58,828 nt of DNA, taken from NCBI GenBank assembly GCA_902168115.1, contig CABHPB010000090.1, positions 1 to 58,828 on the forward strand. The letters are read 5' to 3'. The DNA is from an uncultured Methylopila sp. (lineage in GTDB: Bacteria; Pseudomonadota; Alphaproteobacteria; Rhizobiales; Methylopilaceae). The notes under the pieces are model-generated. The model saw only the letters and a program-made list of their open reading frames with translations, was not told where the DNA came from and did no database searches. Each line of letters starts with the position of its first letter. Positions within the stretch are counted from its first letter, which is position 1. Made by a program: the position numbers and the translations under genes. Below are positions 181 to 39,178 of this stretch, one piece after another.

Positions 181-300
181 GTGCGTCCTTCGAGACGCCC
201 GCTTTCGTGGGCTCCCCAGGATGAGGGATATGGAGGACGCCAAGGACAGACCTCCCTCATGCTGAGGAGCGGTCCAACGGACCGCGTCTCGAAGCACGCA
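181..300. repeat. Intergenic palindromic repeat, copy 1 of 3
   Basis: An imperfect inverted repeat of about 120 bp. The left end reads like GTCCTTCGAGACG and the right end GTCTCGAAGCACGCA, with an internal CCTCATGCTGAGGAGC block. Two other copies occur at about 23312-23429 and 24890-25001. It fills most of the gap between dmmC and the downstream aminomethyltransferase gene. No gene is seen in it. The left half is more diverged than in the other copies. Confidence 0.8.
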
Positions 301-4639: not shown

Positions 4640-5280
4640 TACCGATCCCCGCTAAAGTATTCGAGCGCTTGGCGCCCTGACGCCTGCTCCGCAGGCGAAA
4701 CGCCGGTCGACGACCATGCCGTTCCGGCATTCGCGTTAAGCCGCGGAGTATCCGCAATGGTCCAGCCGACGCCGAAGCAGGTCGGCCCGAAGGTTGAAGG
4801 CGTTGTCCCGACTTTCGATTTCTCGGATATCGAATAAACGCTCACTCGCCCTCTCGGATTATCTCTCGGTTAGCGACCTTGATCCGAATGATGCAGCAAA
4901 GATCGTATATGTCAAAATTTTTTCTTCTGAGTAAAAAGTAGGCGGCAGCGCCGACGTTTGCGGCAGAAGCAACGATTTCGCGAGCAGCGAACGAGCACAG
5001 GTAATCGCGCGGAGAAGAACCCGCGTGACGTGCAGTTCAAGTGGTAGCGCGATGCGTTCGACTTGGGCGCAATAGCCCCGAATTCCGCGCAGTCTCGCCC
5101 GGATCGAAAGCTTCCTGCGCAAGTCTGCGCGTTTCCTCAGTCTTATTCTTTTGAGGGTATCATCCGCGCGCCGCGGGGCGCGCGCAATGGTGACGAGTGG
5201 CACCATTGGAGGGCGTGCAATCGCGCGGTCTAGCGGCGTCCGCGCTTTTGTCCGGCCTGGAATATCCCTACGATCTGGCC
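4640..5280. other. 641-bp intergenic region between the divergent permease and LuxR-type genes
   Basis: No convincing gene. It must hold the promoters for the leftward permease and rightward regulators. The AT-rich patch at about 4895-4945 is the likeliest promoter zone. A 26-codon frame at 4758-4838 is listed separately at low confidence. A 115-codon leftward frame (4859-5206) is Arg-rich, has no recognisable family and is treated as chance. Confidence 0.5.
4758..4838 (+). CDS. Possible 26-residue peptide, unrecognised
   Basis: ATG at 4758 opens a 26-codon frame ending in an acidic tail (FDFSDIE). GGAG lies about 9 nt upstream, inside a small hairpin (GCGGA-GTA-TCCGC) that abuts the start codon. 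No known peptide family is recognised. It lies in the permease/LuxR intergenic region, pointing towards the regulator genes. It may be a chance frame; only the well-placed ribosome site argues for it. Confidence 0.2.
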
Positions 5281-6420
5281 ATGAGTCCGAAGAGCATGCG
5301 TCCAGCTCTGCCCCGCATCGACGCGCCCGACTGGTTCGAGCGCGCCGGCGAGGTCATCCAGTCGATCGGCACGCAGTTCTTTCACCGCGAACTCATCAAG
5401 CTGCTCGAGGCGAGCATCCGCAGCGACGCGGTCTGGATCATCCGCTATTCCGGAGAGGCGCTGCCCGACGTCGTCTACACCTACAATGTCCCGCCCGAGG
5501 CCGAGAAGGTCTATGTCGAGCAGTGCTCCGGCGTCGATCCGTTCTCGATGCGTTGGCGGCGGACGCGGGACTCCGGAGTCTTCACGCTGCAGACCCTGCC
5601 CGACGACAGCGTCGAATACCTCGTCTACAAGAAGATATTCCTTCAGGCCGCCGGCATGGAGGACGAACTCGGGGTCTTCTTCCCGGTCACCGCGCACAAC
5701 TGCTTCGCCTTCTTCCTTGAGCGCGAGAAGGGCCACTTCACCAGGGCCGAGGTCGAGCGCGCGCGGCTGATGTTCCCGGCGCTGGAAAGCTTTCACCGGG
5801 CGCATCTCGGCTGGCTTTTCAACGAGTTGCGCCACACCAACACGCCCGAGGTGACCGGCCTCATCAACCGCCCGACCCTGATTCGCGACCGCACGCGCCA
5901 GCAGGTCTACGCCAACGACGGCTGGAACGAGACGATCGCGCGCCACCCGGAGATCGCGGACGAGGTCGAGGCGCTGTCGTCCGGCGCGGCGGGGCAGGCC
6001 GATTTCGACGACTTCGCGCTGAAGGTCGAACTGCTCGGCGCGGACTTCCCGCTCGCGCCTTGCGGGCGGATGTACGTCATCGAGCGCCACGCCTCGGCCT
6101 ACGGCGCGGAGCGTTTCGACAGCCTGTCCAACGTCTTCCGGATCTTCACCCCGCGCGAACGCGACATCCTCGATCTCGTAATGCAGGGCCGGAACTCGGC
6201 GGAGATCTCCGAGCGCCTCGGGATCGGCGTCGGCAGCGTCAAGAACTGCAAGATAAGAATCTACCGCAAGGCCGAGGTCGAGACCGAGCGCGCCCTCGTC
6301 GCCAAGTTCATGCCGCTCTACGAGCCCGGCGGCGCTGGCGGCGGACGGGGCATGGCTAAAAATTCGGCGGGCGCGCGCGCCTCGCTCCCGCACGCGGCTG
6401 TGGAATCAGTCGGCAGATGA
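5281..6420 (+). CDS. LuxR-type transcriptional regulator, first of a tandem paralogous pair
   Basis: About 379 residues: an N-terminal domain of unknown ligand (DWFERAGEV..., WIIRYSGEALPDVVYTYNVP, LDPFS-like, FFLEREKGHFTRAEVERA) followed by a LuxR/GerE helix-turn-helix (FTPRERDILDLVMQGR, ISERLGIGVGSVKNCKIRI) at about residues 290-350. There is no phosphoacceptor receiver domain, so it probably senses a ligand. ATG 5281 is chosen as the first ATG giving a compact N-terminus like that of the next gene; no strong ribosome site is seen and ATG 5296 is an alternative. Its stop overlaps the start of the next regulator (ATGA). Position between the dmm and bet operons suggests control of methylated-amine genes, which is inference. 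Confidence 0.8.
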   Translation: MSPKSMRPALPRIDAPDWFERAGEVIQSIGTQFFHRELIKLLEASIRSDAVWIIRYSGEALPDVVYTYNVPPEAEKVYVEQCSGVDPFSMRWRRTRDSGVFTLQTLPDDSVEYLVYKKIFLQAAGMEDELGVFFPVTAHNCFAFFLEREKGHFTRAEVERARLMFPALESFHRAHLGWLFNELRHTNTPEVTGLINRPTLIRDRTRQQVYANDGWNETIARHPEIADEVEALSSGAAGQADFDDFALKVELLGADFPLAPCGRMYVIERHASAYGAERFDSLSNVFRIFTPRERDILDLVMQGRNSAEISERLGIGVGSVKNCKIRIYRKAEVETERALVAKFMPLYEPGGAGGGRGMAKNSAGARASLPHAAVESVGR

Positions 6421-7460
6421 GCCCCTGCGCCGGCCCGATCAGGCTTGGACGGGACGACTGGTTCCGCCGCGTCGGCGAGGTCGCCTCGTCGGTCGGGACG
6501 GACGGGTTCCACCAGCAGCTGGTCGAACTGTTCGGATCGACCATCCCGCACAGCGCGAGCTGGATCATCCGCTACTCGCGCGTCGCGCCGCCGGACGTGA
6601 TCTACACGTGGAATGTCCCGCAGGACGTCGTCGAGTTCTACTCGGCCCGTTGCGCGCCGCTCGATCCGTTCTCGGCGCACTGGAAGCGGTTCGAGGAGCC
6701 GGGCGTGCGCACGCTTGCGGGCTTCGACCGCGAGGACGGCGCGGCGGTGGACCCGACGCCGTACAACAGGCTGTTCAAGTCCGCGGCGAAGATCACGGAC
6801 GAACTCGGCGTGTTCTTCTCGACCGTCGGCAACTCCTCGCTCGGGCTGTTCCTCGAGCGGGAGAAGGGCCGCTTCACCGCGGCCGAGATCGAGCGGACGA
6901 AGCGCGTGTTCCCGGTTCTGGACGGGTTTCACAAGACCCATATCGGCCGCATCTTCGACCGGCTGCGCTTCGCCGGCGAGGCCAACGAGACCCAGCTCGC
7001 GGGGCGGCCGACGCTGGTGCTCGACCGGCACGGCCTCGAGATTTTCGCCAATGCCGGCTGGCGCGACGCCGCGGCTGGCGATCCGTCCATCATGGACGCC
7101 GTCGCCTCGGCCGGGGACGAGCGGCAGGTCGCTCTGCCGGAGTTTTTGCTGAAGATCGAGCGTTTCGACCGCTACTTCCCGCTCGCGCCGTCGGGAACGA
7201 TGTTCGTGCTCGCGCCGAAGCCGGAGACGGGCGGCGAGGCGGCCGTGGAGCGGCCTGCGTCTCCGGTCGAGATCGGCCTCACCGCCCGCGAGCGGGACGT
7301 GTTCGACCTCGTCATGGCGGGGCGGACCACAGGCGCGATCGCCCAGTCCCTCCAGATCAGCAAGGGCGCCGTCAAGAACCTGCGCCTGCGGATCTATCGC
7401 AAGGCGGACGTCAGCTCGGAACGCGCGCTCGTGCAGAAATTCGGACGGCTGACGGCGTGA
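6417..7460 (+). CDS. LuxR-type transcriptional regulator, second of the tandem pair
   Basis: A 347-residue paralogue of the preceding gene. Shared blocks include DWFRRVGEV, SWIIRYSRVAPPDVIYTWNVP, LDPFSAHWKRFEEPGVRTL, ITDELGVFF and FLEREKGRFTAAEIERTKRVFP. The C-terminal LuxR/GerE helix-turn-helix (LTARERDVFDLVMAGR, QISKGAVKNLRLRIYRKADV) ends the protein. Start ATG overlaps the upstream stop by 4 nt, so the two are translationally coupled and may work as a heterodimer or as sequential sensors. The gene ends 16 bp before the convergent betA stop, with no hairpin terminator seen between them. Confidence 0.8.
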   Translation: MSPCAGPIRLGRDDWFRRVGEVASSVGTDGFHQQLVELFGSTIPHSASWIIRYSRVAPPDVIYTWNVPQDVVEFYSARCAPLDPFSAHWKRFEEPGVRTLAGFDREDGAAVDPTPYNRLFKSAAKITDELGVFFSTVGNSSLGLFLEREKGRFTAAEIERTKRVFPVLDGFHKTHIGRIFDRLRFAGEANETQLAGRPTLVLDRHGLEIFANAGWRDAAAGDPSIMDAVASAGDERQVALPEFLLKIERFDRYFPLAPSGTMFVLAPKPETGGEAAVERPASPVEIGLTARERDVFDLVMAGRTTGAIAQSLQISKGAVKNLRLRIYRKADVSSERALVQKFGRLTA

Positions 7461-7476: not shown

Positions 7477-9168
7477 TCACGCCGCCCGCAGCGAGGCCTG
7501 CTTCACGGGGCGGTCGCCGGCCACGAAATAGGCCGCGTCGCTGCGCGGCAGCGGCGCGCGATCGCGGATCCGGTCGGCGATCTTCTCGGCCATCATGATC
7601 GTCGTCGCGTTGAGGTTGCCGGTGATGATCAGCGGCATGATCGAGGCGTCGACGACCCTGAGCCCCTCGATCCCGTGGACGCGGCCCTGGCCGTCGACCA
7701 CCGCCATGTCGTCCTCGCCCATCTTGCACGAGCAGGACGGGTGATAGGCGGTCTCGGCGTGCTCGCGCACGAAGGCGTCGAGTTCGGCGTCGGACTGGCG
7801 CTGATCGCCCGGGCTGATCTCCCTGCCGCGATAGGGGTCGAGCGCCGGCTGGCTCATGATCTCGCGGGTGAGGCGGATGCCGTCGCGGAACTCGCGCCAG
7901 TCCTGCTCATGGCTCATGTAGTTGAACAGGATGCTCGGGTGCTCGCGCGGGTCCATCGACTTGAGCGCGATCCGGCCGCGGCTCGGCGAGCGCATCGATC
8001 CGACATGGGCCTGAAAGCCGTGCCCCTCGAAGGCGTTGGCGCCGTTGTAGCTGATCGCCACCGGCAGGAAATGGTACTGCAGGTTCGGCCAGGCGAACTC
8101 CGAGCTCGACCGGATGAAGCCGCCGGCCTCGAACTGGTTGCTGGCGCCGACGCCCGTGCCAAGGAACAGCCATTCCGCGCCGATCTTCGGCTGGTTCCAC
8201 CACTTCAGCGCCGGCGCGAGCGACACCGGCTTGCGGCACTCGTACTGCAGGTACATCTCGAGATGGTCCTGCAGGTTCTGCCCGACGCCCGGCAGGTCGA
8301 GCGTGATCGGCGCGCCGACCTCGCGCAGCAGGGCGCCCGGCCCGACGCCGGAGCGCTGCAGGATCTGCGGAGAGGCGATCGCGCCGGCCGACAGCAGCAC
8401 CTCGCGCCGCGCATGCGCGATCACCGGCTCGTCGCTCGACCCCAAGAGATAGGACACGCCGATGGCGCGCTTGCCGGAGAAGATGATGCGGTCGGTCGTG
8501 GCGTGGGTCGCGATGGTGAGGTTCGCCCGCTCCCTGGCGAGGTCGAGATAGCCGCGCGCGGTGCTCGACCGCCGGCCCTTGCGCGTCACCGTCCGGTCCA
8601 TCGGACCGAAGCCTTCCTGCTGGTAGCCGTTGAGGTCCTCGGTGCGCGGATAGCCGGCCTGGACCCCGGCTTCGATCATCGCCTGGAACAGCTCGTTGAC
8701 GCCGGGCTTGGAGGTCGTGACGCTGACCGGGCCGTCGCCGCCGTGATAGTCGTTCGGGCCGACGTCGCGGGTCTCGGACTTGCGGAAGTAGGGGAGGCAG
8801 TCGGCGTAGGTCCAGTCGCCGAGCCCCGGCGCCTGCGCCCAGCCGTCGAAGTCCATCGCGTTCCCGCGGATGTAGCACATGCCGTTGATCAGCGAGGAGC
8901 CGCCGAGCCCCTTGCCGCGGCCGCACTCCATGCGGCGGCCGTCCATGTGCGGCTCGGGATCGGTGAGATAGGCCCAGTTGTAGCGCCGTCCCTGCAGCGG
9001 GAAGGCCAGCGCCGCCGGCATCTGGGTGCGGAAGTCGAACCTGTAGTCCGGCCCGCCCGCCTCCAGCAGCAGGACGGTCACGTCCGCGTCCTCGGTCAGC
9101 CGTGCGGCGAGCACGTTGCCGGCCGAGCCGGCGCCGATGACGATATAGTCGTATTCCTTCAGGGCCAT
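7477..9168 (-). CDS. betA: Choline dehydrogenase (GMC oxidoreductase)
   Basis: A 563-residue FAD enzyme that oxidises choline to betaine aldehyde and can oxidise that further to glycine betaine. Visible: N-terminal FAD Rossmann motif ([15 protein letters not shown]), ectodomain signatures [14 protein letters not shown] and [13 protein letters not shown], and the C-terminal catalytic region with [10 protein letters not shown] (His near 476) and TGNLNATTI (Asn near 518). Length is usual for BetA. Start taken at ATG 9168, where the protein begins [14 protein letters not shown]; an ATG seven codons earlier would add a short non-conserved extension. Last gene of choXWV-betBA, 29 bp after betB. Confidence 0.93.
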
Positions 9169-9197: not shown

Positions 9198-10712
9198 TCA
9201 GAACACCGAGGCGAAGGCGCCGAGCTCGACCTGGATCGACTTGGTCTGCGTGTAGCGCTCCAGCGTCTCGACGCCGTTCTCGCGCCCGACGCCCGACTGC
9301 TTGTAGCCGCCGACCGGCATCTCGGCCGGGGACTCGCCCCAGGTGTTGATCCAGCAGATGCCGGCCTGGAGCCGGTGGATCACGCGATGCGCGCGGGCGA
9401 TGTCGCTGGTGACGAGGCCCGCCGCGAGGCCGTAAGCCGTCGCGTTGGCGCGGGTCACGGCCTCGTCCTCGCTCTCATAGGCGAGGATGCTCATGACGGG
9501 GCCGAAGATCTCGTCGCGGACGATGTCCATCTCGTCCGTGCAGTCGGTGAAGACCGTCGGCGCGACGAAGGCGCCGGCGCCGAACGCGCCGTCGGTGAGG
9601 CGCGTCCCCCCGGTCAGCAGCCTGGCGCCCGCCGCCTTTCCGCGCTCGATGTAGGAGAGCACCTTCTCCATGTGCGCGAGGCTGGAGAGCGGGCCGAAAT
9701 TGACGCTCTCGTCGAGCGGGTCGCCAGCGCGGATGCGGCGCACACGCGCCAGCACCTTATCCTCGAAGGCGCCCTTCAGCGACGCCGGCACGAAGACGCG
9801 CGTTCCGTTGGTGCAGACCTGGCCGCAGGAGAAGAAGTTCGCCATCACCGCGATGTCGGCGGCGCGGTCGAGGTCGGCGTCCTCGAAAACGATGAGCGGC
9901 GACTTTCCGCCGAGCTCCATCGTCACGTCCTTGAGCGTCGAGGCGGAGGCGCTCGCCATCACCTTCTTGCCCGTCACCGTGCCGCCGGTGAACGACACCT
10001 TGGCGATCCCCGGATGCTCCGTGATCGCCGCGCCGACCGCGGCGCCGACGCCGTTCAGCACGTTGAAGACGCCCGCCGGCAGCCCCGCCTCGGCGTAGAT
10101 CTCGGCGAGCTTGAGCGTGGTGATGGGCGTCACCTCGCTCGGCTTGAAGATCATGGCGTTGCCGGCTGCTAGCGCCGGCGCCGACTTCCAGAGCGCGATC
10201 TGGGTAGGGTAGTTCCAGGCGCCGATGCCGGCGACGACGCCGAGCGGCTCGCGCCGCGTGTAAATGAACGACGTCTCCCGCAGCGGGATCTGGCGGCCTT
10301 CGAGCGAGGGGGCGAGGCCGGCGTAGTATTCGAGCACGTCGGCGCCGGTGACGACGTCGACGGCCCTCGTCTCGGAGTACGGCTTGCCGGTGTCGAGCGT
10401 CTCGATCCGAGCCAGTTCGTCGTTCCGCTCGCGCAGGATCTCGACCGCGCGGCGCAGGATGCGGGACCGCTCCATCGCGCTCATCGCGCCCCAGACCTTC
10501 TGGCCGGCCTCCGCCGCAGCGACCGCGCGGTCGACGTCCGCCGCGCTCGCCTGCTGCACGACCGCAAGAACCTCGCCGGTCGCGGGATTGACGGTCTCGA
10601 AGGTCTCCGAACCTGCCGCGTCGACATAGGCGCCGCCGATGTGGAGCTTGAGGAGTCCGAACTCCGGCTGCGACGCGGCCTGGAGCGGCATGGCGGATGC
10701 GGCGGCGCTCAT
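9198..10712 (-). CDS. betB: Betaine-aldehyde dehydrogenase
   Basis: A 504-residue NAD(P)-dependent aldehyde dehydrogenase converting betaine aldehyde to glycine betaine. All family landmarks are present: AWNYP with N167, K190 in IFKPSE, the nucleotide-loop [10 protein letters not shown] near 241-250, general base E266 in MELGGKSP, catalytic cysteine C300 in [11 protein letters not shown], and EIFGPV further on. The start ATG overlaps the choV stop by 4 nt, which fixes the start among several possibilities in a long open frame. It serves as an in-window active reference for the inactive aldehyde-dehydrogenase domain fused to BetI at 14144-15991. Confidence 0.94.
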
Positions 10713-11935
10713 GGCTTCTGCAACAGCCCCTTGTAGATTTCCTGATGGTCGCAAAGCCCGGCGAGCCGGCCGAGCTGGTCGACCAGCGCGATCGGGTAGT
10801 CGGTCTTGCGGCGGATCTCGATCGCGGTCTTGAGCGGCAACTCCGCCGGCGCGACGAGGATCTCGCCGTCCGACTTCCGCTCGCCGTCGATGCCGATCTC
10901 GCCGATCCTGCAGGGCTTGCCGTCGACGCTGAGCGCGACCGGTTTGCCGGCGTCGTCGAGTGTGAGTTTCGCCGAGCCGTCGCCGTTTAGCAGCACGCAG
11001 CCGCTGTCCTCGCGCTTCAGCTTGTCCGCCGGCGTCATCACCGCGTCGGCGCACAGAACCTCGAGCGGGTTCATGCGCTTGACGAATTCGGCGACGTAGT
11101 CGTCGGCCGGGCGCAGCATGATGTCGGCGGCGGCGCCGAACTGGACGACGCGCCCGCCTTCCATGATGGCGATGCGGTTGCCGATCTTGAGCGCCTCGGA
11201 GAGGTCGTGGCTGACGAAGACGATGGTCTTCTTCAGCCGCTCCTGCAGGCTGAGCAGGTCGTCCTGCAGCTTGTCGCGGATCAGCGGGTCGAGCGCCGAG
11301 AACGGCTCGTCCATCAAGAGGATGTCGGCGTCGGTCGCGAAGGCGCGGGCGAGGCCGACGCGCTGCTGCATGCCGCCCGACAGTTCCTGCACCATCTTCT
11401 CCGCCCAGCGCCCGAGGCCGACCATCTCGAGCTTCTCGTCGACGATCGCCTTGCGCTCGGCGGCCGGCATGCCGCGGATCTCGAGGCCGAAGCCGACATT
11501 GTCGCGCACCGAGCGCCACGGCAGCAGGCCGAATTGCTGGAACACCATCGAGACGGTCTTGAGCCGGATCTCCCGGAGCGTCGCGGCGTTGCAGGTCGCG
11601 ACGTCCACCTGCCTGCCCTCATGGCGGACGAGCACCTTGCCGCGCGCCGTCTTGTTGAGGCCGTTGATGGCGCGCAGCACGGTCGACTTGCCCGAGCCGG
11701 ACAGGCCCATCAGCACGCAGATCTCGCCCTCGCGGATGTCGAGGTTGACCTTGTAGGCGCCGAGCGTCGCGCCGCTGTCGTCGCGGATCTTGTCGCGGTC
11801 GGCGCCGGCGTCGGCGAGCGCCAGCGCGCGCTTGGCGTTGCCGAAGATGATGGCGAGGTCTTCGAGCTCGACCGCGTTGGTCTGGGCGTTTGTCTGGGCG
11901 TCCACGGTCGCCTCCCCGTTCGCGCCGGCGCTCAT
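10709..11935 (-). CDS. choV: Choline ABC transporter ATP-binding protein
   Basis: A 408-residue ATPase of the ProV/OpuAA/ChoV family that energises choline (or betaine) import. Walker [10 protein letters not shown] is at 77-85, the signature [14 protein letters not shown] follows, and Walker B is [12 protein letters not shown]. The C-terminal part (about 290-408) is where this family carries a CBS-like accessory region. It overlaps betB at its 3' end and choW at its 5' end by 4 nt each (ATGA), so the transporter and dehydrogenase are made from one coupled message. Confidence 0.92.
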
Positions 11936-12789
11936 GCCGGCCTCCTGCGGGACTGGCGCTCGGGACGCTTGCAGACGCGGTCGAGGATGATGGCGAGCAC
12001 AACGATCGCGATGCCGGCCTCAAAGCCCATGGAGATGTTGACCGAGTTCAGCGCCCGCACGACCGGCTTGCCGAGGCCGTCGGCGCCGACGAGCGCGGCG
12101 ATGACGACCATGGAGAGGCTCAGCATGATGCACTGGGTGACGCCGGCGAGGATGGTCGGCATGGCGGCCGGAAGCTCGACCTTGAACAGCAGCTGCCGCT
12201 TGGTCGCGCCATAGGCGAGGGCGGCTTCCCTGAGCGACTCCGGCACCGAGGAGATGCCGAGCTGGGTGAGCCGGATCGGCGCCGGCAGGGCGAAGATCAC
12301 GGTCGAGATCACGCCAGGCACCGTGCCGAGGCCGAACAGCACCAGCGTCGGGATCAGGTACACGAAGGTCGGGATCGTCTGCATCAGGTCGAGCACCGGC
12401 CGGATCGCGGCGTAGAGCCAGGGCCGGTGCGCCGCCATGATGCCGACCGGCACGCCGATCACGATGCAGGTCAGCGTCGACCAGATGACCAGCGACAGCG
12501 TCTGCATCGTCGCCTCCCAGTAGCCGAGGTTGATCACCAGCAGCAGCGACAGGACGATGAAGGCGACGAGCCCGAACGAGCGGTGCAGGAACCAGGCGCC
12601 GGCCGCGAACATCCCGATCAGCAGCAGCGCGGGCGCCGCGAGCAGCACCGCGGTGAGGCCGTCGACCATCGAGGACAGCGCGATCGAGACGAAGTCGAAG
12701 AAGGCCTGGCCGTGATCGGTCAGGAAGTTGATCGCCGTGGTCAGCACCGAGCCGACCGGGATCTTGTGGGACGTCAACCACTCATACAT
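11932..12789 (-). CDS. choW: Choline ABC transporter permease
   Basis: A 285-residue inner-membrane permease of the ProW/ChoW type with about six membrane segments and a binding-protein-dependent transport signature around EAALAYGATKRQLLFKVELPAAMP, the cytoplasmic loop that contacts the ATPase (quoted in two parts: EAALAYGATKRQL and LFKVELPAAMP). Single permease gene, as usual for this family, probably working as a homodimer with ChoV. It starts about 160 bp after choX, a gap that carries an imperfect GC-rich hairpin which may lower downstream expression relative to the binding protein. Confidence 0.92.
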   Translation of the reverse strand: MYEWLTSHKIPVGSVLTTAINFLTDHGQAFFDFVSIALSSMVDGLTAVLLAAPALLLIGMFAAGAWFLHRSFGLVAFIVLSLLLVINLGYWEATMQTLSLVIWSTLTCIVIGVPVGIMAAHRPWLYAAIRPVLDLMQTIPTFVYLIPTLVLFGLGTVPGVISTVIFALPAPIRLTQLGISSVPESLREAALAYGATKRQLLFKVELPAAMPTILAGVTQCIMLSLSMVVIAALVGADGLGKPVVRALNSVNISMGFEAGIAIVVLAIILDRVCKRPERQSRRRPA

Positions 12790-12952: not shown

Positions 12953-13900
12953 TCAGTTCAGGCCGAGGCTCTTCTGCACGACCGGCAGGGCCGGCTGGCC
13001 GTCCAGCGTGGTGACGCCGTCAAGCCATGCCTTCCACGCCTCGGGCTCGGACTTCAGCCACTTCTCGGCGGCCTTCTCGCCCTCCATCCCGTCGTCGAGG
13101 ATGGAGCCCATCACCTTGTTCTCGGTGTCGAGCGTGAAATTCAGCTTGTTGAAGAAGGTCCCAAGGTTCGGGCACTCCTTGGCGTAGCCGGCGCGCAGGT
13201 TGGTGAAGATCTCCGCGCCGCCGTAGTTCGGGCCGAACACCTCGTCGCCGCCCTCGAGATACTTCAGCGGGAACTTGGTGTTCATCGGATGCGGCTCCCA
13301 GCCGAGGAACACGATCGGCTCCTTGCGGCGCTGGGCGCGGTCGACCTGGGCGAGCATGCCCTGCTCGCTGGATTCCACGAGATCGAAGCCGTTGAGGCCG
13401 AACTTGCCGTCCTTGATCATGCCGAGGATCAGGCGGTTGCCGTCATTGCCCGGCTCGATGCCGTAGATCTTGTCCTTGAGCTTGTCCTTGAACTTGGCGA
13501 TGTCCGCGAAGCTCTTGAGGCCGGCGTCGTAGAGATAGGCCGGCACCGCCAGGGTGTACTTGGCGCCCTTGAGGTTGGGGCCGATCACCTCGATCTGGCC
13601 GGCGTCGACATAGGGCTTCCGGTCCGCCTCCATGGTCGGCATCCAGTTGCCTAGGAAGACGTCGATGTCCTTCGACTTCAGCGAGGCGTAGGTGACCGGG
13701 ACCGAGAGCACTTGGGTCTTCGGCTCGTAGCCGAGCGGCTTCAGCAGGCGGGAGGCGATCGCGGTGGTCGAGGTGATGTCGGTCCAGCCGACGTCGGCGA
13801 ACCGCACGGCCTTGCAGGAGGCGGGGTCCGCCGCCTGGGCGGCGCCGGCGCCGAGAAGCGCGGCGAACAGAACCGAAATTCCGAGAGTACGACGCTTCAC
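12953..13900 (-). CDS. choX: Choline-binding periplasmic protein
   Basis: A 315-residue OpuAC/ChoX-type substrate-binding protein that captures choline in the periplasm. A signal peptide (KRRTLGISVLFAALLGAGAA) with a likely cleavage AQA-AD begins it. The mature part starts SCKAVRFADVGWTDITSTTA, typical of ChoX. The GTG at 13900 is chosen because a strong GGAGG lies 8 nt upstream and the signal peptide begins exactly there; the frame remains open upstream. First gene of choXWV-betBA. A 16-bp palindrome at 13957-13972, about 57 bp upstream of the start, is a candidate BetI operator. Confidence 0.93.
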   Translation of the reverse strand: MKRRTLGISVLFAALLGAGAAQAADPASCKAVRFADVGWTDITSTTAIASRLLKPLGYEPKTQVLSVPVTYASLKSKDIDVFLGNWMPTMEADRKPYVDAGQIEVIGPNLKGAKYTLAVPAYLYDAGLKSFADIAKFKDKLKDKIYGIEPGNDGNRLILGMIKDGKFGLNGFDLVESSEQGMLAQVDRAQRRKEPIVFLGWEPHPMNTKFPLKYLEGGDEVFGPNYGGAEIFTNLRAGYAKECPNLGTFFNKLNFTLDTENKVMGSILDDGMEGEKAAEKWLKSEPEAWKAWLDGVTTLDGQPALPVVQKSLGLN

Positions 13901-13956
13901 GGGGAAACCTCCAAAAGCCGGGGCCTCAACTGGCGCTTCACGAGTCGTAGAACGCA

Positions 13957-13972
13957 TTGAATGATCGTTCAA
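13957..13972. promoter_or_regulatory. Candidate BetI operator upstream of choX
   Basis: TTGAATGATCGTTCAA: inverted arms TTGAA/TTCAA around a 6-bp centre. It nearly matches the second site at 14109-14124 (consensus TTGAATGRTYGTTCAA), and the two flank the divergent choX and betI starts. A TetR-type repressor of the BetI family binding here is inferred from position and symmetry. Confidence 0.65.
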
Positions 13973-14108
13973 CAGCAAATTTTCGATGCCGCAGCGCAAA
14001 AACTGTCATCTTGTTGATTTCATTTGCGTCATCCGGCTGATTTTTTGTGCAGGTGCGCTGGACGGGCGAGTTTTCCAGTGCGGGCGGGCATGGCGTCGGT
14101 GATATGGA

Positions 14109-14124: not shown

Positions 14125-14143
14125 TCCATGCCTATCCTCGGAC

Positions 14144-15991
14144 ATGGCCGCGAGCGACCCTGCGTTCCCAGATGCCGATCCGATGCGTAGCTTCGAGGCG
14201 GAGCGCCGGCGGCATCTGATCGAGGCGACGATCGAGACGGTCGGGGACGTCGGCTTCAAGGCCGCCTCGCTCGGCGAGATCGCGCGCCGCGCCGGCGTGT
14301 CGCCCGGACTGTTCGCGCATTACTTCGGAGACAAGGACGGGTTGCTGGAGGCGACGCTGCGCTTCATGGCGACCCGTCTCGCCCGCGCCACCGCGCTCAG
14401 AATGCGGGCTGCGCGGTCGCCGATCGAGCGGGTGCTCGCGGTCCCGGAGTCGACGCTCGCCCCGGAGGAGTTCGATCGCCGCACGAGCGCCGTCTGGCTC
14501 GCCTTTTGGGGCCAGATCATGCATTCCGAGCCCTACAGGCGCGTGCAGGCGATCTACCTGCGTCGCATGCGCTCCAACCTTCGTCATGCGCTGCGCGAAC
14601 TGGTGCCGCCGGAGCGGCTCGAACTGACGGTCTCCACCATCGCCGCCACCATCGACGGCCTCTGGCTGCAGTCGCACGCGAACATCGAGGCGCGCGGCGA
14701 CGGCGCGGAGGCGCGCGCGGCGGTCCGCGAGCTCGTGATGTGGCTGATCGGCGCCGGCGGGCGCGTCGCCGGGCAGTCGCCGTCGGCGCCGGCGTCGCCG
14801 CAGGCCTGGGCGCCGGTCGAGGGCGCGGGCTCGCCGGCCTGGCGCGCGGTCGATCGGCTCGACCGGGCGGAGGCGCTGCGCCGCGTCGCCGAACTCCTGC
14901 GGCGCGAGCGTCGCTCGCTCGCAAGGCTCGAGGCCCGCGACACGCTGCGCCCGGTTTCCGACGTCGAAGCCCACGATCTGCCATTGATCATCCGGGCCTT
15001 CGAGCGGGCCGCGGAACGCGCCGCCGACCCGAGGCCCGAGCGCGTCCGGCTCGGCTCGGCCTGCTACGGCGTCGAACTGCGCGAGACCGCCGGGGGCGTC
15101 GCCGCCGGCGTTCACTGGAGCGCGGCGCTGCTGTCGGCGGGCCGGATCGCGGCGCCGGCGCTGGCCGCCGGAAGCTCGGTGCTGATCTGCTCGGCGGCCC
15201 GCAAGGCCCGCGCGATCGATCGACTCGGCGAGATCCTCTTCGAAGCCGGCGTTCCCTCCGACGCTTTCGCCATGGCGGCCGGCGAGGACGCCGAGAGGGC
15301 GATGCGCGTGAACGCGCCTGCGCTGGTCGCGTGGGACCGGGCGCCTGCGAAATCGGCCGTCTTCGTCGGCGAGGACGCGGACGTGCCCGCCGCCGCGGCG
15401 GCGCTTCTGACCGGGCGGCGGCCCTGGGCGCGCGGGCGCGCGCTGAGCGAGACCGTCGTCTTCGCTGCGGCCGCCGTGCGCCGCCCGCTGGTCGAGCGGC
15501 TCAAGGCCGGGCTTCGCTCGCTCGAGCCCGGCGACCCGACCGATCCGGCCTGCGACGTCGGCCCTCTTCCCGACCGGGATGCGCTCGAGCAGGCTCTGTC
15601 GGCGATCGCGGAAGCCGGAGCGGCCGGGGCCAGTCTCAGGGCGGGCGGCCGCGCGCATGAGAGCGGCCGCGGCCGGGCCTGCCATCTGAGGCCGACGTTG
15701 CTCGATGGCGTCGACGAGACCATGGCCGTCGTCAGGACGCCGCTGTTCGCGCCGATCGTGAGCGTCTGCGAGGCGGCCGACGAGACCGAAGCGGCAGCGC
15801 GTCTGCGCGCTTTCGGCCGGGATCTGAGGCTCGGCGTGTTCGCCGCCGACCCTGACCGGGCGCTCCGCTTCGTGGCGGAGGCCGGCGCGTCGGTCAGCTG
15901 GATCAACGGCGCCTCAAGCCATCCGGACTGGGCGGCGCCGGAGCCGGACGGCTTCGAGACGGTCCGGCGCGCGGTCGTGTCGGAGGCCTGA
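14144..15991 (+). CDS. betI: BetI-type TetR repressor fused to an inactive aldehyde-dehydrogenase domain
   Basis: A 615-residue fusion. Residues about 15-200 are a BetI-like TetR repressor: RRRHLIEATIETVGDVGF, helix-turn-helix SLGEIARRAGVSPGLFAHYF, and BetI-like ligand half (VWLAFWGQIMH, IAATIDGLWL). After a Pro/Ala linker, residues about 230-610 align along their length with the BetB of this window, from ALRRVAELLRRER through LEARDT, APALAAG, LFEAGVPSDAF, KSAVFVGEDAD, VRTPLFAPIVSV to VSWING. Catalytic features are gone: the cysteine position is Leu434 (GRALSE for GQVCTN), the general-base Glu is Arg, and about 25 residues carrying the nucleotide loop are missing. The likely role is choline-operon repression with a betaine-aldehyde or similar sensor. 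Start ATG 14144 lies just after an operator palindrome; an upstream start is possible but would overlap it. Confidence 0.88.
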   Translation: MAASDPAFPDADPMRSFEAERRRHLIEATIETVGDVGFKAASLGEIARRAGVSPGLFAHYFGDKDGLLEATLRFMATRLARATALRMRAARSPIERVLAVPESTLAPEEFDRRTSAVWLAFWGQIMHSEPYRRVQAIYLRRMRSNLRHALRELVPPERLELTVSTIAATIDGLWLQSHANIEARGDGAEARAAVRELVMWLIGAGGRVAGQSPSAPASPQAWAPVEGAGSPAWRAVDRLDRAEALRRVAELLRRERRSLARLEARDTLRPVSDVEAHDLPLIIRAFERAAERAADPRPERVRLGSACYGVELRETAGGVAAGVHWSAALLSAGRIAAPALAAGSSVLICSAARKARAIDRLGEILFEAGVPSDAFAMAAGEDAERAMRVNAPALVAWDRAPAKSAVFVGEDADVPAAAAALLTGRRPWARGRALSETVVFAAAAVRRPLVERLKAGLRSLEPGDPTDPACDVGPLPDRDALEQALSAIAEAGAAGASLRAGGRAHESGRGRACHLRPTLLDGVDETMAVVRTPLFAPIVSVCEAADETEAAARLRAFGRDLRLGVFAADPDRALRFVAEAGASVSWINGASSHPDWAAPEPDGFETVRRAVVSEA

Positions 15992-16000
15992 GCGCCGGCG

Positions 16001-16342
16001 TCAGTGCGCGACGGACTTCGACAGCAGCGAGACGACGACCACGCCGGCGACGATCAACGCGATGCCGAGGATCGCCGCGAGGTCCAGAGACTGCCGGAAC
16101 CAGAGCCAGCCGACCGCGGAGATCAGGACGATCCCGCCGCCGGACCAGATCGCATAGGCGACGCCGGTGGGGATCGTCTTCAGCACATGGGAGAGCAGGT
16201 AGAAGGCGACGCCGTAGCCGGCCGCGGTGACGAGACTCGGGCCGAGCCTCGAAAAACCCTCGGACGCCTTGAGCGCGGAGGTCGCGATGACTTCCGCGAC
16301 GATCGCGAGGGCGAGCAGGAGATAGGCCGATCCGATGGGCAT
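16001..16342 (-). CDS. Small multidrug resistance (SMR) family transporter
   Basis: A 113-residue four-helix membrane protein of the EmrE/SugE family, exporting quaternary cations or guanidinium-like compounds by proton exchange. The essential membrane glutamate is E17 in [20 protein letters not shown] in the third helix is typical. Quaternary-amine export would fit the choline genes alongside. Its ATG follows immediately after the T tract of the terminator of the upstream porin gene, and its ribosome site (GGAG, 6 nt before ATG) is the 3' arm of that terminator stem. Convergent with the betI fusion gene, 9 bp apart. Confidence 0.9.
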
Positions 16343-16380
16343 AAAAAACTCCGGGCGGGTTTGGCGACCCGCCCGGAGTT
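16343..16380 (-). terminator. Terminator of the porin gene, overlapping the SMR ribosome site
   Basis: Perfect 14-bp stem (16347-16360 with 16367-16380), 6-nt loop, followed on the minus strand by six T that end at the ATG of the SMR gene. The GGAG of the descending arm is the only ribosome site available to that gene, so a read-through transcript would hide the site in the hairpin. Confidence 0.88.
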
Positions 16381-16405
16381 CAATCTAGGGTCAGGTCCGC
16401 CGCGC

Positions 16406-17248
16406 TTACTTCAGCTTGCTCAGCGAGGTGTCGAAGGCGATCTTGCCGACCACCGTCGAGCCGCACCAGGTGCGGTTGCCGGTGTTGAACAGGCACTCGC
16501 CCTTGCCGAGGTTGGTGTCGGTGTAGCGAACGTCGAGCGTCATGGCCTTGTAGGTCGCGCCGCCGCCGATGTTCCAGGTCGTGAAGTCCTTGGCGTTGAA
16601 GCCGTTATTGGCCTTCTTGATCCACTGCTTGCCGAACTCGCCCGAGATGTAGAAGCCGAGGTTCGGGAAAGCCGCGACCGGGATGTTCACCTTCGGAACG
16701 AGCGAAAGGTAGAGCTCCTTGGCGCCGGTGTTGGCGTAGTCGGTGCTCGCCCAGATGTTCGCGGTCAGCGAGCCGAAGTCGCCGAAGGCGATGCTCGGCA
16801 GCGCCTTCACTTCCCAGTAGTCGGTCTGCTTCTGGCCCGGGAAGGTCTTGGTCTCGCCCGGGTACCAGTAATACAGGTAGCCGGCGTCGAGGGTGAACGA
16901 GCCCCAGGTGTGCCGGATGCCGGCGTAGAGGTCGATCTCGGCCGACGGATCGGTCAGGCCGTAGCGGGCCGGGAAGCTGACGCTGGACGACCAGACGCCC
17001 ACGTAGAACCAGTCGAGCGCCTGCAGCTCGACATAGCCCTGGATCGCCGGATCCTTCTTCGAATTCGTGACGCCGCGGAAGCGATAGTCGGTCACTCCGG
17101 CGACGCCGAAGGCGACGTCGAACAGCGACGGGACGGCGGCCTCGACGACAGGCGCCGGCTCGGCCAGATCGGCCGCCTGCGCGGCGCCGGTGGCCACGCA
17201 TCCCAACCCTGCGGCCAGCGCGACCGCCGCAATTGCGCACCTGTTCAT
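16406..17248 (-). CDS. TorF-family putative outer-membrane porin
   Basis: A 280-residue beta-barrel protein. N-terminal signal peptide with cleavage near GAAQA-AD, then alternating aromatic/polar strands typical of the TorF (Gcw_chp) family: VTDYRFRGVTNSKKDPAIQG, a start-of-barrel block diagnostic of the family, and YLYYWYPGE further on. Outer membrane; substrate unknown. The start ATG 17248 has AGGGGA upstream. It is a single-gene unit: 336 bp of non-coding DNA upstream and a strong terminator downstream. Confidence 0.85.
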   Translation of the reverse strand: MNRCAIAAVALAAGLGCVATGAAQAADLAEPAPVVEAAVPSLFDVAFGVAGVTDYRFRGVTNSKKDPAIQGYVELQALDWFYVGVWSSSVSFPARYGLTDPSAEIDLYAGIRHTWGSFTLDAGYLYYWYPGETKTFPGQKQTDYWEVKALPSIAFGDFGSLTANIWASTDYANTGAKELYLSLVPKVNIPVAAFPNLGFYISGEFGKQWIKKANNGFNAKDFTTWNIGGGATYKAMTLDVRYTDTNLGKGECLFNTGNRTWCGSTVVGKIAFDTSLSKLK

Positions 17249-17584
17249 GTCTTCGTCCCCTGCTGCCCAATCAACCCCGATGGCAGAACCCAAGAATGAC
17301 ACACGGGAACGGCATGAAAACTTACTGCTCGGCGCAAAACACATGGAGAGTCACGGATGATGCTTTTACGACACAGATGTCTCCGCGGCTCGTTCGAATG
17401 AAGATTGACTGATAAGGCGAGAAAAACATGCGGCGCCGATGGACGGGATAAGCATGAGATCGGATCGCCAGAACGTGATCCGGCGATTGGCGAGCGTTTA
17501 ATACGCATCGAGCCGCCGGAACGTCTTCCGGCGAGGACGAGCGGCTGTCACGGCGGCGTGAGCCGAAGGGCGTTGGACTGAGGT
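17249..17584. other. 336-bp intergenic region upstream of the TorF porin
   Basis: No gene seen. It must carry the porin promoter; the AT-richer part at about 17310-17450 is the likely place. Short frames here lack ribosome sites and family likeness. Confidence 0.5.
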
Positions 17585-38683: not shown

Positions 38684-39178
38684 ATGCAGGTAGCGGCCGG
38701 TTTTGTGCCTGTCAGAGCCCAAGAATTGGCTGCAGGAGATTTCTGCTTTTTCGAGCACCGCGGTCATTTAGCCTTTGCTCTGGCCGTCCAGAATGAGCAT
38801 GAGGGCGGGCCTAACATGCTTGCGGTATTAGTAGGCGCACAAAGCGAAAATTTGCGCTGTGCGAGGCGGCCTTATGCATTTGCTGGCGAAACAGTCATGA
38901 AAGTCGAGGATCCGATAGTTAGTGTGTTACCATCTGCATTGGTTCTTGGAGGCAATCGAGGCGATCCTCCGCCTGGACATTTATATCTCGTTGACGGACA
39001 ACTGGCCCTCTCTGTTGCGGTTCAAGACCACTTCAATGACATTAATTTTTACAGCATAAACGACGGATCATATTTGGGCGGTGACTATTATCAGAGACAG
39101 AATTTTTCGAAATGGGAGGTTGGCCAAATAGGATTGGATAGGAAATTCAAAACTGTATTCGAATTTCCTGGATATTAA
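38684..39178 (+). CDS. Hypothetical protein, AT-rich, probably acquired
   Basis: A 164-residue protein with no recognised family. Codon use is plainly unlike the neighbours (many A/T third positions such as att, ata, aaa, tta), while all flanking genes are strongly GC-biased. A good ribosome site (AGGGG, about 9 nt before ATG) supports expression. It has no signal peptide or membrane helix, and the second half is rich in Gly, Asp, Asn and aromatic residues (DHFNDINFYSINDGSYLGGD). The AT-rich flanks at 38605-38683 and 39179-39217 look part of the same acquired segment. An effector, immunity protein or phage remnant is possible; none can be shown. Confidence 0.7.
   Translation: MQVAAGFVPVRAQELAAGDFCFFEHRGHLAFALAVQNEHEGGPNMLAVLVGAQSENLRCARRPYAFAGETVMKVEDPIVSVLPSALVLGGNRGDPPPGHLYLVDGQLALSVAVQDHFNDINFYSINDGSYLGGDYYQRQNFSKWEVGQIGLDRKFKTVFEFPGY

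Follow-up and report, generated by a model that had tools for sequence, protein, structure and literature searches.

The window analysed here is the whole contig stretch of 58,828 nucleotides. On its forward strand, a single stop-free frame (14144-15991) encodes a protein of 615 aa in which a BetI-type TetR repressor is joined to a domain resembling the betaine aldehyde dehydrogenase (BADH) BetB. The gene is divergent from choX-choW-choV-betB-betA, which lie on the other strand. The features are as follows.

14144..14761, forward strand: BetI-type TetR repressor half (residues 1-206; TetR_N at 25-70, TetR_C_6 at 93-199)
14762..14824, forward strand: Ala/Pro-rich linker of low confidence (about residues 207-227; pLDDT below 50 at 205-228)
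14825..15988, forward strand: BetB-like aldehyde dehydrogenase (ALDH) domain, predicted to be catalytically dead (residues 228-615, about 388 residues)
15440..15442, forward strand: codon of Ala433, opposite the catalytic Cys300 of BetB (BLASTP and MAFFT alignments)
12953..13999, reverse strand: choX, choline-binding protein (TIGR03414, 467.4 bits; start codon uncertain)
11932..12789, reverse strand: choW, permease (TIGR03416, 408.8 bits)
10709..11935, reverse strand: choV, ATPase (TIGR03415, 519.4 bits)
9198..10712, reverse strand: separate intact BetB (TIGR01804, 722 bits, above the cut-off of 668.6; 8 of 8 checked residues present)
7477..9165, reverse strand: BetA, choline dehydrogenase (TIGR01810, 904.9 bits)
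13957..13972, forward strand: predicted BetI operator 1, choX side, TTGAATGATCGTTCAA
14109..14124, forward strand: predicted BetI operator 2, betI side, TTGAATGGTTGTTCAA

Both repressor domains of the fusion scored above their Pfam cut-offs (PF00440, TetR_N, 46.3 bits; PF13977, TetR_C_6, 81.6 bits) and Aldedh was matched in two stretches (165.4 bits, E 2.2e-48). The model NF001978 ('transcriptional regulator BetI') gave 159.8 bits, above its cut-off of 118, and the BetI model TIGR03384 gave 173.5 bits, below its cut-off of 201.3. The first-pass annotation had proposed that one open frame joins a TetR/BetI repressor to a BetB-like ALDH, and the frame, the Pfam matches and BLASTP all agree with it. 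A 517-aa antisense open frame (14132-15685, reverse strand) shadows the fusion; the DNA of the C-domain is 76% GC, and antisense shadow frames are common at such high GC. Directly after the fusion (16001-17344) lie an SMR transporter and a Gcw_chp/TorF-like protein. This pair is also found at loci L036-L038 and L104, and a TorF-like gene is near the fusion in L018, L040, L041, L043, L046, L048, and L105; because the pair recurs across loci, the fusion/SMR/TorF-like block seems to travel together. On the far side of the cluster, beside betA, two adjacent and slightly overlapping forward-strand genes (5197-6420 and 6417-7460) both have a LuxR-type GerE helix-turn-helix at the end (scores of 34 and 40.9 bits) and are possibly a tandem regulator pair.

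The repressor half carries what is expected of a BetI: TetR_N followed by a BetI-type C-domain, choline genes alongside, and palindromic operator-like sites. Exact matches to TTGAA-N6-TTCAA fall at 13957 and 14109, and with one mismatch allowed the window holds three sites, the third at 39021, against 0.21 expected. The pattern TTGAAY-N4-RTTCAA occurs exactly twice in the draft genome (G000, 98.4% complete), at 13957 and 14109, which are 152 bp apart, and both half-sites of operator 2 are invariant in the window and five relatives aligned with it. The same pattern is present at two places in the G010 genome and is absent from the G007 genome, whose fusion has no adjacent cho/bet cluster. This two-site pattern speaks for a DNA-binding half that works and has a local regulon. 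The palindromes of the divergent promoter resemble in layout the betI boxes described in PMC12442346; on the strength of BetI biology, as in that paper, choline would be the effector of the window fusion and the direction of regulation would be that of BetI.

To place the C-domain, it was aligned with the window's own BetB. BLASTP gave 28% identity over residues 228-594 (E 6e-34) with gaps of 23 and 3 residues, and the first 68 residues of BetB are unmatched by the fusion. The loss of the catalytic Cys, claimed at first pass, holds, but the substitute named then, Leu434, is the neighbour of the relevant residue, since Ala433 stands opposite BetB C300 in BLASTP and in both MAFFT alignments. The Arg put at the general base is Arg399, opposite E266 in BLASTP and one MAFFT alignment; the alignment used for the active-site table has a gap there. 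A deletion of about 25 residues at the nucleotide loop had also been described, and the MAFFT alignments do place the long gap over the loop, whereas BLAST places it just before. The other BetB positions lost are N167 (Ser in the fusion), K190 (Cys), and E401 (Pro). The fusion lacks the combination of catalytic Cys, general-base Glu, and oxyanion Asn of active ALDHs, as well as that of cofactor-binding Lys and glycine loop, K190 being Cys and the loop positions being gapped. With BetB models it scores 141.4 bits (NF009725, cut-off 593) and 124.1 bits (TIGR01804, cut-off 668.6), and the best PDB sequence relatives are betaine aldehyde dehydrogenases (3r31, 6wsa). These comparisons support the view that the C-domain is a real ALDH domain, judged to be catalytically dead from the residues it has lost.

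An assembly or sequencing error, or the misjoining of two genes, had been named as a possible refutation. The G010 assembly, however, contains a full-length copy 83% identical to that of the window, and the same architecture is found in 16 records of the clade to which the window belongs (window included). One of them is a complete plasmid record, from Methylobacterium nodulans, in which the 677-aa copy is annotated as a single plain BetI gene and has the same bet/cho neighbours. Nothing was found in favour of an error, and given these further copies a frameshift or assembly join was rejected as extremely improbable.

Relatives were sought at several depths. In the genus of the window, a full-length fusion is present in 6 of 13 genomes, counting that of the window (relatives at 59-83% identity), a short BetI match in 2, and no match at E 1e-20 in 5. 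A scan of genome contigs returned 15 loci, with fusions in Chelatococcus (L036 is C. sambhunathii S14), Methylopila, Hyphomicrobium, Methylobacterium, and Methylorubrum and short BetIs in Hansschlegelia and a Roseiarcus MAG. When the order was queried with the BetI domain, 168 of 397 genomes matched at E 1e-25 (8 candidates scored per genome); at least 23 frames longer than 600 aa were among the matches listed, of which 22 were confirmed as fusions by reading, the remaining one being a 674-aa frame at 39% identity (G120). At the level of the class, 26 of 385 genomes matched at E 1e-36, and three fusions were confirmed, intact in G751 and G752 and dead in G663. The long frame of G427 was rejected as a fusion, being an upstream extension of an unfused betI. 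The short BetIs in this sample have 197-243 aa.

The TetR_N plus Aldedh architecture, whose search across the order had been suggested, thus recurs, and it exists in two states. The 17 fusions classed as intact all keep the eight active-site and cofactor residues checked, as do all 14 BetB-type free ALDHs, and none of the 20 fusions classed as dead keeps the catalytic Cys, although this table describes the classes rather than tests them, since they were first drawn from such residues. Identity to the window BetB separates them too (57-62% for intact and 23-46% for dead fusions). We conclude from these alignments that BetI fused to an apparently intact BetB exists, and that the active site has been lost in the window clade, in the genus g80, and in one further lineage, with the frame staying open. 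The ALDH half of that further lineage (L118, from G663) has shrunk to about 280 aa, and shrinkage varies between lineages.

The surroundings of the two states were then compared. Within the order, all 14 intact loci are divergent from choXWV and 13 of the 14 have betA behind; no second betB was found at these loci within the stretch fetched. Three intact fusions lie outside the order, two without adjacent choXWV (L119, L123) and one with choXWV some kb off (L120). A Komagataeibacter saccharivorans plasmid gene annotated betB (L123:5031-7061) is such a BetI-BetB fusion, with its active site intact by its residues and betA downstream. Of the 16 records in the window clade, 12 have a divergent cho-bet cluster that includes a separate betB. 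The exceptions are L105 and L039 (no cho/bet cluster in the vicinity), L046 (at a contig edge), and L047 (with betA only, the cho genes being further away); choV was not found in the cho-bet cluster of L042. In L105 (7980-9851, from G007) the dead fusion lies away from cho/bet clusters, directly behind a gene that by eye is SDR-like. As it has no adjoining cho/bet cluster, and the genome no BetA match and no exact operator, this regulator may have a new target. In g80, 6 of 14 genomes gave a BetI match and all six are fusions, intact in G382, G253, and G399 and dead in G325, G393, and G371. The dead ones adjoin choXWV; betA was not found in the stretch fetched.

In the tree of the BetI half, all fused rows and three short rows nested among them form one side of a branch (100/99.9), and the corresponding branch in a wider BetI sample has 94/92. 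The window clade (100/100) unites 16 dead fusions with three short BetIs inside (L044, L045, and L050, from Hansschlegelia and a Roseiarcus MAG), and a tree in which the dead fusions were forced together to the exclusion of these was rejected (AU p 0.0009). Because they branch inside the dead-fusion clade, the short BetIs have probably lost the domain secondarily; when the DNA downstream of the three was searched with the dead domain (tblastn), only chance-level matches came up. The dead g80 rows are a clade next to an intact congener (99/90; 98/85 with L089), while in the wider tree the g80 rows fall in an unresolved set with L119 (85/96) in which the dead three are not one clade. L118 groups with other intact fusions there (89/89). 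The ALDH would have died in fusions at least twice and probably three times, judging from these sequences, the death in L118 counting as independent on the 89/89 support. That the window clade and g80 share one death is disfavoured only at AU p 0.037, the value for the two as one clade. The first ALDH tree placed the dead domain inside the fused-BetB clade with 100/100. This placement leaned on the fast-evolving dead rows of g80; without them the AU p is 0.45 with free BetB and 0.43 with intact g80, and the data do not decide. Descent of the dead domain from a fused enzyme, which would be the parsimonious reading, is therefore based on the tree of the BetI half and on the architecture that the fusions share.

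To determine whether the dead domain is still under selection, pairwise NG86 omega was computed for both halves. Among 15 dead-dead pairs the ALDH gave 0.205-0.567 and the BetI half 0.051-0.220, in 4 intact pairs these values were 0.049-0.218 and 0.098-0.291, and 3 mixed dead-intact pairs gave 0.317-0.605 for the ALDH. With a maximum-likelihood codon model, omega was 0.102, 0.183, and 0.117 for three dead ALDH sets, 0.033 and 0.056 for intact ALDH, and 0.028, 0.041, and 0.062 for BetI, the lowest being that of the window's group. Fixing omega at 1 (kappa fixed at 2) was worse by 333, 258, and 134 lnL for the dead sets. The dead domain is under weaker but clear purifying selection, as estimated from these codon comparisons, and free degradation with dN/dS near 1, which had been named as grounds for refuting the first-pass reading, was not seen. 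The constraint is spread throughout, with pooled omega of 0.19-0.42 in 13 windows within the C-domain. It is modest, since the pooled value of the whole C-domain, 0.288, is only somewhat under that of the linker (0.385 in window 194-233) and just 53 of the 269 columns that do not vary among five intact fusions persist in 8 or more of ten dead representatives. Among these ten, 9 or more agree at 60 of the 409 columns that start with residue 207, and 43 of the 60 have the residue of the intact proteins; 30 columns are conserved in at least 8 with a residue unlike the intact consensus, for example, R269, L330, W428, and R608. Structure prediction, another of the checks proposed, returned a confident model in which the C-domain keeps the ALDH fold; 6 of the 21 rows in the alignment for the structure model are intact.

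These data bear on the possibility that the ALDH half is a passive remnant, a decaying passenger awaiting deletion. Selection is relaxed about 2-6 fold compared with intact ALDH (maximum likelihood), omega is close below that of the linker, the domain shrinks to a varying degree, most extremely in L118, and it is absent from the three nested short BetIs, all of which would suit a passenger. Nevertheless, omega is well below 1 in 15 of 15 dead-dead pairs and in 13 of 13 windows, omega of 1 is strongly rejected, and the fold is confidently predicted. Moreover, no stop has been gained between the window and L036, where about 8-13 are expected under neutrality, although a single nonsense change would free the repressor and open frames are partly definitional, since a fusion with a stop would have been classed with the short BetIs. 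The selection data speak against a pure passenger, an explanation that we consider rather improbable.

We also asked which genomes encode BetB and BetA elsewhere. The fusion is the only ALDH above the TIGR01804 cut-off in 14 of 14 intact-fusion genomes tested (12/12 and 2/2; G359 and G134 lie outside this count). Hence related fusions with an intact enzyme half appear from model scores to be the only recognised BetB of their hosts, which goes beyond the earlier view of the locus. Dead fusions are accompanied by a separate BetB above the cut-off in G000, G002, G008, G009, and G010; no ALDH above the BADH equivalog cut-off was found in G007, G325, G393, G371, and G663. BetA above its cut-off is missing from 5 of 23 genomes (G007, G399, G325, G393, and G371), and in G663, outside this scoring, a BetA-like gene adjoins the fusion (53% to the window BetA). 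A missing cut-off match does not equal missing activity, as each of the 23 genomes has ALDHs below the cut-off and most have other BetA-type oxidoreductases. G399, with an intact fused BetB and no BetA above the cut-off, fits a loss of betA that preceded the death of the ALDH in g80.

It had been proposed that the dead ALDH is a pseudoenzyme sensor, so that DNA binding would respond to betaine aldehyde or some other ligand bound by the domain, or to its docking with BetB. The retained predicted fold under purifying selection, the residues conserved in the dead clade only (W428 among them), an HW(S/N) segment at the position of the BetB catalytic-Asn motif in 12 of 16 dead-clade rows, and the separate betB near most window-clade fusions are all in its favour. 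However, the cofactor loop is missing throughout the same clade, as are the catalytic Lys, Glu, and Cys, 15 of 16 rows also lack the Asn, and Hansschlegelia is without the domain yet keeps betA and betB. Dead fusions also persist in the five genomes without an ALDH above the BADH cut-off, and in four of these (G007, G325, G393, and G371) without BetA above its cut-off, which counts against sensing as a general explanation. The proposal was not supported by our analysis and is unlikely in our judgement.

The reading that we favour, with a confidence slightly better than even, is an origin as repressor-enzyme followed by a non-catalytic, structural or assembly role of the ALDH domain, with choline sensed by the BetI half. 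The ancestor would have been one polypeptide that repressed and catalysed, with a logic like that of PutA. Catalysis would have died once a second BetB took over the catalytic job or the pathway was lost, and the fold would have been retained since the fused repressor needs it structurally, for stability and for dimer/tetramer assembly; the assembly state is itself conjectural. Choline sensing would remain in the BetI half, and the repressor would be expected to occupy both TTGAAY-N4-RTTCAA sites between choX and betI and to shut both divergent transcripts until choline binds. A counterpoint is that the domain is dispensable in some lineages, given the BetIs without it inside the dead clade. 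A bolder version, possible but doubtful, is that of a TetR-based counterpart of PutA which was the pathway's only recognised BADH and became a pure regulator in several lineages, where the dead fold would add a second property, either a ligand input or an ALDH-type tetramer holding two BetI dimers on the genome's only two predicted operators. That two operator boxes accompany dead fusions was suggested by exact-match counts and dropped, since several intact fusions also have two at one mismatch; dead fusions are not alone in having two operators, and the layout is therefore no demonstration of bridging.

No description of a BetI-BetB or TetR-ALDH fusion was found in the open-access literature, and one may exist elsewhere. 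The fusions have a practical consequence, for genes annotated 'BetI' (M. nodulans) or 'BetB' (Komagataeibacter) can be fusions of opposite catalytic status. Taken together, they offer a natural series that runs from separate genes to a repressor-enzyme fusion as the only recognised BADH, then to fusions in which catalysis was lost repeatedly while the fold stayed, and finally to loss of the domain. In such a series, close relatives can be used to test why regulators retain dead enzyme domains.

Classical BetI ends near 195-200 aa and responds to choline. The N-terminal half of the window protein matches most of the length of BetI and adjoins choXWV-betBA, but about 410 further residues follow; the ALDH half differs from BetB in scoring under both BetB cut-offs and in the loss of catalytic and cofactor residues. 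ROK repressors and Gal80/Gal3 are enzymes turned regulators in which the old fold is established as the ligand sensor. They share with the window fusion an enzyme fold retained in a regulator, although the folds are unrelated and sensing by the old fold is a hypothesis here. The C-terminal domain of PutA is a non-catalytic ALDH-superfamily fold. Trifunctional PutA is, according to PMC5293562, an autogenous repressor whose C-terminal domain is essential for functional switching. Like the intact BetI-BetB fusions, PutA carries a DNA-binding domain and a pathway ALDH in one polypeptide. It differs in its ribbon-helix-helix instead of TetR, in its other enzymes, and in its unrelated origin, and the only ALDH domain of the window protein is dead; the RHH, PRODH, and P5CDH architecture is not found in the latter, for which Pfam at E 0.01 gives only TetR_N, TetR_C_6, and Aldedh. 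The natural series of fusions suggests that TetR repressors, too, can turn into repressor-enzymes, in parallel to PutA.
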